Assembly (NCBI RefSeq): GCF_004331345.1
Contig: NZ_SJJZ01000006.1
Location: 186,001-250,000 of the forward strand
Origin: Kribbella soli
GTDB taxonomy: Bacteria > Actinomycetota > Actinomycetes > Propionibacteriales > Kribbellaceae
DNA length: 64,000 nt
Direction of reading: 5' to 3'
Shown: in pieces, positions 28,049-30,859 of the stretch
How the letters are laid out: every line of letters begins with the position of its first letter
How positions within the stretch are numbered: position 1 is the first letter of the stretch
The notes under the pieces: generated by a model
What the model saw: only the letters and a program-made list of their open reading frames with translations
Told to the model about the DNA's origin: nothing
The model's database searches: none
Made by a program: the position numbers and the translations under genes

Positions 28049-28918
28049 ATGGATGTTGCGGTGGTTGGTGGGAGTGTGGCCGGGCTGCAGGCGGCGCTGA
28101 CGTTGGGGCGGGCGCGACGGCGGGTGGTGTTGTTCGACGACGGGCAGGCACGGAACCGTGCGGCCTCGCACGTGCACAACTTCCTCGGCGCGGAGGATCT
28201 TTCGCCGAGTGAGCTGCTGGCGGTGGGGCGGCGACAGGTGTCGGCGTACGGCGTCGACGTGCGGGACTCGCGGGTCGACGACGTGGACGTGGATGGTGAC
28301 GAGTTCGTCGTCGGCGGGGAGCGGGTGCGTGCCGTCGTACTGGCGACCGGACTGTGGGACGAGTTGCCCGACGTACCAGGGGTGGCGGACGGGTGGGGAC
28401 GGTCGGTGGTGGCTTGTCCGCACTGCCATGGATGGGAGGTGCGGGATCAGCCGCTGGTTCAGCTCGGGATGCGCGGGTCGCCGGAGCGGTCGGTGGCGCG
28501 GGCGTTGCTGCTGAGCCGGTGGAGCGACGACGTGACGCTGTGCACGGACGGGGACGAGCTGATGGCGCTACAGGTGGATCAGCTGGCTCGAGCCGGGGTC
28601 GCCGTGCGCACCGAGCACGTCAAAGAGGTGCGGACAGGTTCCGTGCTGCTCGGCGGGGCGGAGTTGGCAGCGCGGCGGGTGTTTGTGGTGGTACGGCAGC
28701 ATCAGCAGAGTGATCTGGCCGAGCGGCTCGGGTGTCAGGTCGCGGACGGTGCGGTGGTTACGGACGAGGGCGGGCGGACCACGATGCCTGGGATCTACGC
28801 AGTTGGTACGACGACGAGTCCGGCGCTGCTCGCGATCGGCGCAGCGGGTCATGCGAGTACGGTGGCGGTCGCCGTACACGGGGATCTCCTAGAGCTGGAG
28901 CTGAGCGGCGGGCGGTAG
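28049..28918 (+). CDS. Thioredoxin-reductase-like FAD/NAD(P) oxidoreductase
   Basis: 289 residues. The FAD loop is GGSVAG at 7-12; the redox pair is Cys123-Pro-His-Cys126 in [10 protein letters not shown]; and [12 protein letters not shown] is the second FAD motif. The NADPH domain lacks a clear GxGxxA/G ([10 protein letters not shown] stands in its place), so it may be a ferredoxin-type or NADPH-independent relative rather than a classical TrxB. Such enzymes catalyse disulphide exchange or dithiol oxidation in natural-product pathways. Leaderless expression is likely. Confidence 0.8.
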
Positions 28919-29452
28919 CCGCGTCGGGTCGGCGATCGGCCAGTCGACCGGTGGTTCCGGGAGCTCGTCCAGTTGCAGGAGGCACCAGGGCGAGAGGTCG
29001 GGAAGCTCCCGTACTTCGTGCCACTCGGCCCACCGGTAGTCCGCGACCTCGGCCGGGTTCGGCATCGGGTCACCGGTCCACCACGCTCGGTACACCGGGC
29101 AGATCTCGTTCTCGACCATGCCGGTCGGCATCTCGGCGCGGTACCGGAACTCCGGCAACACCAGATCGACGGCGTCAACAACGATCCCCAGTTCGTCCGC
29201 GAGCCGGCGCCGTACCGCCTGCTCGAGCGGCTCGCCCGGAAGTGGGTGCCCGCAGCAACTATTGGTCCAGACGCCGGGCCAGGTGGGCTTGTCGAGCGCC
29301 CGCCGGGTCAGCAGCACCCGCCCGGCCGCGTCGACCACGTAGCTGGAGAACGCGAGATGCAGCGGCGTCGCCGCGTGGTGGACCGCCGCCTTCGCCTCGG
29401 TCCCGACCGCACGCCCACCCTCGTCCACCAGCACAACCCGCTCGTCGATCAC
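28889..29452 (-). CDS. idi: Isopentenyl-diphosphate delta-isomerase, type I
   Basis: 187 residues. The Nudix-fold isomerase has catalytic Cys67 in TNSCCGHP and Glu116 in VENEICPV, at the same numbers as E. coli Idi. His25/32-type metal ligands and the [14 protein letters not shown] substrate stretch are present. It interconverts IPP and DMAPP for isoprenoid synthesis. The 3' end overlaps the convergent flavoprotein gene by 30 bp. Divergent from tyrS. The partial geranylgeranyl-reductase-like gene at the left edge is not linked to it. Confidence 0.93.
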
Positions 29453-29494
29453 GCCTTGAGCCTAATCGGATTCCGGCAGGTGCTCGGCGGCTGC

Positions 29495-29500
29495 TAGCCT
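29495..29500 (+). promoter_or_regulatory. -10 element of the tyrS leader transcript
   Basis: TAGCCT fits TANNNT and would start transcription at about 29507, the first base of the leader ORF, which would then be read as a leaderless mRNA. Inference from spacing only. Confidence 0.4.
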
Positions 29501-29506
29501 CAGAGT

Positions 29507-29563
29507 GTGACCAAGCACTGCGTGACCTATCGACCGGCTCTGGGAGGAGTCGGCATTCGGTAG
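29507..29563 (+). CDS. Leader peptide ORF upstream of tyrS (18 codons, one Tyr)
   Basis: GTG to TAG, reading MTKHCVTYRPALGGVGIR. It contains a single TAT tyrosine codon at position 8 and sits just before a stem (29536-29544 with 29581-29589) and a terminator (29593-29620). Its end lies inside the loop of the first stem. Control by tyrosine or tRNA-Tyr supply is an inference; one Tyr codon is fewer than in classical attenuators. Confidence 0.45.
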   Translation: MTKHCVTYRPALGGVGIR

Positions 29564-29620
29564 TCCCCGCAGTCGCTGCACCCAGAGCCTCCGAGGCAGG
29601 AACCGTCCGGTTCCTGCCTC
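29536..29620 (+). promoter_or_regulatory. Putative tyrS attenuator: large stem followed by terminator
   Basis: GGCTCTGGG (29536-29544) pairs with CCCAGAGCC (29581-29589), and the loop contains a small GCAG/CTGC hairpin. Immediately after comes a perfect 12-bp stem, GAGGCAGGAACC and its complement around GTCC (29593-29620), followed by TTTCCGTTT. A strong terminator between a promoter and a housekeeping gene implies conditional read-through. No T-box consensus (TGG-x-ACCGCG) is present. Confidence 0.6.
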
Positions 29621-29674
29621 TTTCCGTTTGCCGGAGGCACTGGTTCGGAGGTGCCTCGTCCCGAGAGGAACCTC

Positions 29675-30859
29675 ATGAACGCTGTCATCGACCGGTTACG
29701 CCGTACCACCGACCTCATTGTCGGCGAGGACGACCTGCGCGAGCGCCTGGAGTCCGGGCGGCCGCTGCGGATCAAGTACGGCGTCGACTGCACCGCGCCC
29801 GACCTGCACCTCGGGCACGCGGTCAACCTGTGGATGATGCGCCAGCTGCAGGATCTCGGGCACCGGGTCGTGTTCCTGCTCGGCGACCTCACCACCCGCG
29901 TCGGCGATCCGACCGGGCGCTCCGAGACCCGGCCGATCCTCACTCCGGAGCAGATCGACGCGAACGCCGCCTCGTTCCTCGAACAGGTGTCCCTGGTCCT
30001 GCGGACCGATCCCGACGTCTTCGAGGTACGCCGGAATTCCGAGTGGTACGACGCGATGCCGGTGGCGGAGCTGTTGAGTCTGTTCGCCCAGGTCACGCAG
30101 GCGCAGCTGATGAGCCGGGACATGTTCCGCGAGCGGGTCGCGGCCGGCCGGGAGATCGCCGTACACGAACTGGTGTACCCGGTGCTGCAGGGATACGACA
30201 GCTTCGCGATGCAGAGCGACCTGACGATCGTGGGGTCGGATCAGCTGTTCAATGAGCAGCTCGGGCGGCACTTCCAGCAACGGCTCGGCGCGCCGCCGCA
30301 GGTGGTGATCACGACGACGATCACGCCCGGAATCGACGGCCGGGCCAAGCAGTCGAAGTCGCTCAACAACTACATCGGGCTGACAGACAGTCCGCGGGAC
30401 AAGTTCGGAAAGGTGATGAGCATTCCGGACTCGCTGGTCGAGGCGTACGCGCGGGTCTACACCGAGCTGCCCCTCGACACGGTCGCCGCGCTCGCGGATG
30501 CGACCGGCCCGGCAGCGCGCGACGCCAAGCTCCGGCTGGCGGCTGCCGTCGTGACCCGGTACCACGGCGCCGGCATCGCCAAGACCGAGCTGGACGCCTT
30601 CCGTCACACGTTTTCCGAGCGTTCCGAACCGGACGAGATGCCCGAGGTCGTCGTCACCGGTGAGGTCGCGACTGCCTTCGACCTGCTGCGCGCCGTCCGC
30701 CCGAACGACAGCAACTCCGCGCTGCGTCGTCTGCTGCAGCAGGGCGCGGTGACGATCAACGGCGTACGGATGGACGATCCTGCTGCTGCCGTCGAGCTCG
30801 ACGCCGGGGTCGTGCTGAAGTCGGGCGCTCGCACTTGGCACCGGATCACGCGAAAGTAG
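29675..30859 (+). CDS. tyrS: Tyrosine--tRNA ligase
   Basis: 394 residues from the ATG at 29675 (GAGAGGA upstream). The class I signature HLGH is at 45-48 and the second signature reads KQSKS at 225-229, with Gln instead of the usual Met. The tyrosine pocket stretches HELVYPVLQGYDSF and IVGSDQLFN are present, and the C-terminal S4 RNA-binding domain (about 335-393) ends GVVLKSGARTWHRI. It charges tRNA-Tyr. The KMSKS-like motif and NNYIG belong to the TyrZ-type branch, so it may be one of two TyrRS in this genome. It is preceded by a leader and attenuator. Confidence 0.93.
   Translation: MNAVIDRLRRTTDLIVGEDDLRERLESGRPLRIKYGVDCTAPDLHLGHAVNLWMMRQLQDLGHRVVFLLGDLTTRVGDPTGRSETRPILTPEQIDANAASFLEQVSLVLRTDPDVFEVRRNSEWYDAMPVAELLSLFAQVTQAQLMSRDMFRERVAAGREIAVHELVYPVLQGYDSFAMQSDLTIVGSDQLFNEQLGRHFQQRLGAPPQVVITTTITPGIDGRAKQSKSLNNYIGLTDSPRDKFGKVMSIPDSLVEAYARVYTELPLDTVAALADATGPAARDAKLRLAAAVVTRYHGAGIAKTELDAFRHTFSERSEPDEMPEVVVTGEVATAFDLLRAVRPNDSNSALRRLLQQGAVTINGVRMDDPAAAVELDAGVVLKSGARTWHRITRK

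Follow-up and report, generated by a model that had tools for sequence, protein, structure and literature searches.

The leader of the tyrosyl-tRNA synthetase gene that starts at position 29675 of the Kribbella soli DNA analysed here (a stretch of 64,000 nucleotides, hereafter the window) is very probably a ribosome-mediated attenuator through which the level of charged tRNA-Tyr governs an auxiliary tyrosyl-tRNA synthetase (TyrRS), the gene of which is named tyrS2 below. The elements of the locus, all on the forward strand, are the following.

29495..29500, + strand: putative -10 box TAGCCT, read from the sequence, 12 nt 5' of the start of the upstream open reading frame (uORF)
29507..29563, + strand: leaderless uORF encoding MTKHCVTYRPALGGVGIR followed by a stop codon; the distance from start to Tyr codon is in frame across homologous leaders
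29528..29530, + strand: regulatory Tyr codon UAU, invariant across all tyrS leaders
29534..29553, + strand: hairpin A (29534-29540 with 29547-29553), from pairing, compensatory changes and folding; its formation excludes stem B
29536..29544, + strand: segment X, GGCTCTGGG, the 5' strand common to A and B, starting 8 nt past the first base of UAU
29581..29589, + strand: segment Z, CCCAGAGCC, the 3' strand of stem B, from covariation
29593..29620, + strand: terminator hairpin T, 12 bp, from pattern search and covariation
29621..29630, + strand: U-rich tract of the terminator, TTTCCGTTTG, read from the sequence
29633..29668, + strand: segment folding with the Shine-Dalgarno sequence (SD), from SD accessibility compared with shuffled upstream sequence; its parts are GGAGGC (29633-29638), GGTGCCTC (29650-29657) and the SD GAGAGG (29663-29668)
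29675..30859, + strand: tyrS2 (TIGR00234), with an ATG at 29675 in frame with a GTG at 29651

Direct reading of positions 29440-29720 gives a uORF of 18 codons and a TAG stop (29561-29563). Since the -10-like TAGCCT is found at 29495-29500, the GTG start at 29507 would be at or adjoining +1, implying that the uORF is translated without a leader. Hairpin T displays 12 perfect pairs and a GTCC loop; such a bare terminator pattern is weak on its own, because shuffled sequence yields 0.7 terminator-like sites per 3 kb. The leader as a whole folds at -91.3 kcal/mol versus -65.5 kcal/mol in shuffles (z -6.35). An earlier note on this DNA had described an apparently leaderless 18-codon ORF with a Tyr codon, and a perfect 12-bp terminator followed by tyrS, and both descriptions hold, the Tyr codon being the TAT at 29528-29530. 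What it called a large stem is not a single stem: it consists of A and B, which exclude each other. The U-run that it saw is present but weak. The window also carries, at 28889-29452 on the reverse strand, a divergent gene resembling isopentenyl-diphosphate isomerase, a name given from sequence alone; its GTG start lies 12 nt from a TAGGCT box, and it may likewise be leaderless.

The product of tyrS2 is a TyrRS (TIGR00234, E=1.3e-84), with best PDB matches to 6bqy and the enzyme entry 1h3e, and is 31% identical to the other, housekeeping TyrRS of the genome. The gene at 29675 is therefore an auxiliary second copy and not the housekeeping gene. Both genes can be found in 37 of the 38 Kribbella genomes examined and in all six Actinopolymorpha genomes; in one Kribbella genome (G028) the second TyrRS gene is absent, as is its leader, which was found in 36 of the 37 Kribbella genomes searched for the leader DNA, again with G028 as the exception. 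In many draft genomes the contig breaks off at the housekeeping tyrS (G000:C2:459-1646 and many relatives), which points to a neighbouring repeat, perhaps an rRNA operon.

The arrangement of the tyrS2 leader is conserved across Actinobacteria beyond chance, with the same leader before tyrS2 orthologs from Microbacterium, Sinomonas, Herbiconiux, Leifsonia, Brachybacterium, Occultella, Isoptericola, one Propionibacteriaceae genome and others; these tyrS leaders are mutually related, so counts over them are not independent samples. Nearly all of the homologous leaders have a TANNNT box 12-13 nt 5' of their start codon, and UAU lies 18, 21 or 24 nt from the start, always in frame, as codon 7, 8 or 9. 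Segment X (GGCTCTGG) begins 8-9 nt past the first base of UAU in the homologous tyrS leaders. The uORF peptide is near constant within Kribbella (YRPALGG.G), but the frame across X varies by lineage, giving YRPALGG (PALGG) or YPNGSGVSR (GSGVSR), the latter type in Occultella, Isoptericola, Brachybacterium and some Microbacterium; it is thus the Tyr codon and the RNA that are conserved, not the peptide. In a more distant ortholog, from a Pseudonocardiales MAG (L139), X is unrelated (GCTCGGTGA) and still starts 8 nt after TAT, and a matching TCACCGAGC can be seen by eye downstream.

Some leaders depart from this form. An intrinsic terminator separates leader and gene except in two Kribbella leaders, L052 (genome G022) and L054 (genome G015), where T is absent and the uORF, A and B are retained; no T was seen in the Microlunatus leader L113. 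The Actinopolymorpha-like leaders L062-L067 have another form, with a uORF encoding MIG(T/S)QQRYRR before its stop codon, without a terminator and with a long-range pairing between the uORF start and the tyrS2 start region that is supported by compensatory changes (TCGGGA/TCCCGA, and ATGTTCGGGA/TCCCGAACAT in L064). In leader L006 (genome G013, just 5' of position 1589) the uORF start is CTG instead of GTG with the -10 spacing unchanged, possibly a leaderless CTG start or a broken uORF.

In a structure alignment of 33 leaders, hairpin A, formed by X with the GAGCC directly 3' of it, has 98.3% of cells paired, with compensatory changes, and stem B, formed by X with the downstream CCAGAGCC, has 99.2%. 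Double changes in B (UA to CG and GC to AU) amount to three cells in two pairs, a modest support, since X and Z hardly vary; longer variants of B with compensatory changes are visible in L120, L127 and L123 (TCAGAGCC/GGCTCTGA, CTTCAGAGCC/GGCTCTGAAG and CCGGAGCC/GGCTCCGG). For T, 98.2% of cells are paired and two-sided compensatory changes occur in 9 of the 12 pairs. RNAalifold independently chooses B and T. Having X in common, A and B are mutually exclusive, and B is separated from T by a gap of 0-5 nt, with no overlap, in every actinobacterial leader scored. The alignment of tyrS leaders advised by the earlier note, which had asked for covariation and a conserved Tyr codon and had regarded a lack of conserved stems or uORF in relatives as fatal, thus gave covariation in A, B and T, an invariant UAU, and conservation of both stems and uORF.

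The codons of the uORF are unusual with respect to the genes around them. The Tyr codons of the tyrS uORFs are UAU in 40 cases and UAC in one; in the codon baseline, made of the window genes and the tyrS2 genes, the counts are 6 TAT and 232 TAC for the former and 1 TAT and 214 TAC for the latter (UAU being about 0.5% of Tyr codons in tyrS2 genes). This bias is opposite to genome usage in every lineage seen, among leaders that are related and do not represent independent events. Of the 37 tyrS leaders that could be scored, 36 have their last aromatic codon 8 or 9 nt before stem B; the spacing is mostly 8 nt in the leaders of aromatic synthesis genes (aro leaders) described below, where the Phe codons are TTT 26 times and TTC 4 times although the genomes almost always use TTC and TAC. 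The near-exclusive use of the rare UAU, often joined by UUU, suggests that slow codons have been chosen for sensitivity.

The same scaffold can be found before genes for aromatic amino acid synthesis. A covariance model built from the tyrS leaders alone was applied to 394 genomes belonging to the class; as the terminator hairpin, being symmetric, reaches 24-26 bits by itself on both strands, only matches of about 28 bits or more were counted. The strong full-length matches (45-77 bits) lie mostly before a gene other than tyrS, which where checked is aroFGH, encoding DAHP synthase, with which the synthesis of aromatic amino acids begins; the uORFs there contain YWRF, YPYF, WYWRF or WYRRF. The aroFGH leader of this very genome (L196; G000:C4:937184-937306, - strand) encodes VKRSYWRFFEWPALVPGDSADR and a stop codon, with Tyr, Trp and Phe codons, and has its hairpins in the same order as the tyrS leader, plus a terminator. 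A third set of leaders (L192, L193, L204 and L209-L211) has mainly Phe codons (for example, MNRCFAFTEPAPGSRS followed by a stop codon) and precedes a gene in which regions resembling DAHPS and chorismate mutase are recognised, at scores far under the curated cut-offs; this gene may encode a divergent or regulatory enzyme. The short 5' ORF with codons matching the downstream gene is hence a recurrent element, its coding nature being suggested by frame conservation. To judge from these predicted uORFs, the codon content of the leader follows the biochemical role of the downstream gene, which makes it the strongest evidence for codon sensing; one RNA scaffold reused with codons matched to the gene would come close to a natural proof of it.

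The earlier idea of a ribosome-based attenuation responding to tyrosine charging may be considered largely supported, judging from the in-frame UAU, the covariation of A, B and T and the paralogous leaders whose codons match the pathway, and the effect of the ribosome on the fold was predicted for 39 leaders. Without a ribosome, A is formed at 0.67 and B at 0.30 (means over the 39 leaders). With UAU in the ribosomal A site and the RNA covered to +11, the values become 0.12 and 0.80. X begins at +12, which is about the position of the helicase edge of the ribosome. The two exclusive stems are thus predicted to be switched by ribosome position, a flip sensitive to where the edge of the ribosome is placed: with 4 nt more of X masked, B is left at 0.49, and with 5 nt more at 0.04, neither stem remaining. 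The 26-nt footprint, centred on the codon, that was used in work on the ilvB1 attenuator of M. tuberculosis would hide X in part. B is likewise favoured (0.84) by a ribosome resting at the stop codon, and timing must therefore matter. The probability of T, P(T), is about 0.98 in all ribosome states of the actinobacterial leaders; since the presence of B leaves the folding of T unaffected, B is no antiterminator of the classical base-pairing kind, and no antiterminator pairing with the 5' arm of T was found by eye or by folding.

A different situation is predicted for the TyrRS orthologs of Ktedonobacter (L124 and L128), whose leaders encode YYY and YYYY. In these Chloroflexota homologues, and only there, the alternative stem B overlaps the terminator, so that B and T exclude each other by base pairing, and with a stalled ribosome P(T) is predicted to be 0.55 instead of 0.87 in one and 0.57 instead of 1.0 in the other. 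As modelled, they would be close to a textbook attenuator. Because B overlaps T and stalling lowers P(T) in Ktedonobacter, as in the three-hairpin model of C. glutamicum ilvBNC, B is taken as the ON form in the actinobacterial leaders also, and starvation would be the ON state.

In the proposed mechanism, a ribosome would load onto the leaderless uORF once the 5' end of the RNA emerges. With ample Tyr-tRNA, the single UAU would be passed, A would form or X would lie under the moving ribosome, and the polymerase would stop at T. If charged tRNA-Tyr runs short, the ribosome would wait with UAU in its A site, covering the lower part of A; X, from +12, would be free to pair with Z as stem B, and tyrS2 would be transcribed and translated. 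How B relieves T is the weakest step. By looping out the intervening RNA, B could keep the stalled ribosome next to the foot of T, across a gap of 0-5 nt, so that T would find no room between ribosome and polymerase; that B relieves T by pressing the stalled ribosome against its base is the preferred guess, a tentative one that is possible but doubtful. From the strict spacings of 8-9 nt between codon and stem and 0-5 nt between stem and terminator, an effect of the stalled ribosome on T without competing pairs is predicted. It is a speculative and on the whole improbable extension that the leaders form a widespread actinobacterial attenuator class, codon-modular (Tyr for tyrS2; Tyr-Trp-Phe for DAHP synthase; Phe for the DAHPS/chorismate-mutase-like gene), in which termination is blocked by juxtaposition of ribosome and terminator and not by competing pairs. 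The single Tyr codon is a weaker signal than the codon runs of textbook leaders.

Alternatively, the output could be translation, the state of the ribosome on the uORF gating access to the SD of tyrS2 and T acting as a constitutive damper or spacer. In favour of this rather unlikely reading, SD accessibility is 0.27, compared with 0.41 when the sequence upstream is shuffled (p=2e-6), two Kribbella genomes and Actinopolymorpha have no T, and the Actinopolymorpha leaders instead pair the uORF with the SD region, with compensatory changes. However, equilibrium folding of the 39 leaders gives the same SD accessibility across ribosome states (0.25, 0.26 and 0.28), and most lineages retain T, with compensatory changes, together with its U-rich tail. 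A relay running from Z to the SD by way of 29633-29638 and 29650-29657 is attractive by eye in many leaders, but leaves SD accessibility unchanged in the folding; a release of the SD upon stalling in Actinopolymorpha was considered as well, and folding gives no consistent gain. That T simply terminates constitutively, or marks where a small RNA ends, without regulation, would agree with its thermodynamic stability in all states and is nevertheless very unlikely, given the conserved A/B switch, the fixed codon spacing and the match between codons and gene function in the paralogous leaders.

Arrest by the nascent peptide, with the conserved YRPALGG.G stalling the ribosome under the influence of a small molecule or drug, could account for the near constancy of the peptide within Kribbella; but there is no conserved peptide near the stall site across lineages, other genera having the unrelated GSGVSR with only the Tyr codon and the RNA segments persisting, and the aro leaders put other aromatic codons at the same spot, which makes arrest hardly credible. 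A divergent T-box, or another tRNA-binding riboswitch with UAU as specifier and no need for translation, would fit an aminoacyl-tRNA synthetase (aaRS) gene preceded by a Tyr codon, and the 5' arm of T loosely resembles the T-box sequence by eye. The absence of a T-box stated by the earlier note is confirmed: the covariance model RF00230 (T-box sequence, Stem I) does not recognise the leader even at E<=10, and among the families of Rfam 15 none matches at gathering score, with sub-threshold chance matches alone at E<=10. Moreover, the leaders preserve the start codon with its spacing from the -10 box, the reading frame and the stop codon, and the serial codons of the aro leaders (YWRF) are not explained by a single specifier loop, so that a tRNA-binding riboswitch is extremely improbable and attenuation by a translating ribosome is retained.

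The T-box of Bacillus tyrS and tyrZ binds tRNA directly, without a uORF, and responds to the charging of tRNA-Tyr; like the tyrS2 leader it controls TyrRS genes, but its features are absent from the latter. An attenuator of an auxiliary TrpRS in Streptomyces, reportedly described by Vecchione and Sello in 2010, resembles the tyrS2 leader in serving an auxiliary aaRS copy and differs by its Trp codons. The uORF-type attenuators of Streptomyces trpS and leuS (PMC1262725) similarly act on actinobacterial aaRS genes, with Trp or Leu codons; for the tyrosine operons of Actinobacteria the same survey, from 2005, reports that RNA structures are not conserved. The C. glutamicum ilvBNC attenuator (ilvB-II motif), with antiantiterminator, antiterminator and terminator hairpins (PMC11857589, PMC10272879), shares with the tyrS2 leader a near-leaderless uORF with codons for the pathway product and three hairpins, but the codons are branched-chain ones and a GCC trinucleotide is common to its antiterminator and terminator, while B and T of the tyrS2 leader never overlap. 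An aromatic case is the aroR attenuator before C. glutamicum aroF (Neshat et al., 2014, via PMC11802643; PMC4046766), which, compared by its description, has an aromatic-codon leader peptide (Phe-Tyr-Phe) before a DAHP synthase gene. Tyr availability is without effect on it according to the review (PMC11802643), and no tyrS case is reported there.

Attenuation by uORF is thus known in Actinobacteria for ilvBNC, trp, leuA and aroF (PMC11857589, PMC10272879, PMC11802643, PMC4046766), and the literature searched, which takes in few subscription papers, holds no report of a tyrS attenuator in this group. The element was hence rightly called little-described as regards tyrS in Actinobacteria, but not as regards its mechanism class, which is well known. 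Mutual exclusion of antiterminator and terminator by base pairing, the mark of the classical trp type, was tested and is absent from the actinobacterial leaders, given the 0-5 nt gap and the P(T) of about 0.98, for which reason the tyrS2 leader is not filed under that type; it belongs to the broader uORF-sensing class, working like a trp-type attenuator. Tyrosine would thereby be added to the amino acids sensed by actinobacterial uORF attenuation, and the leader suggests a possible means for the tight control of a spare TyrRS.
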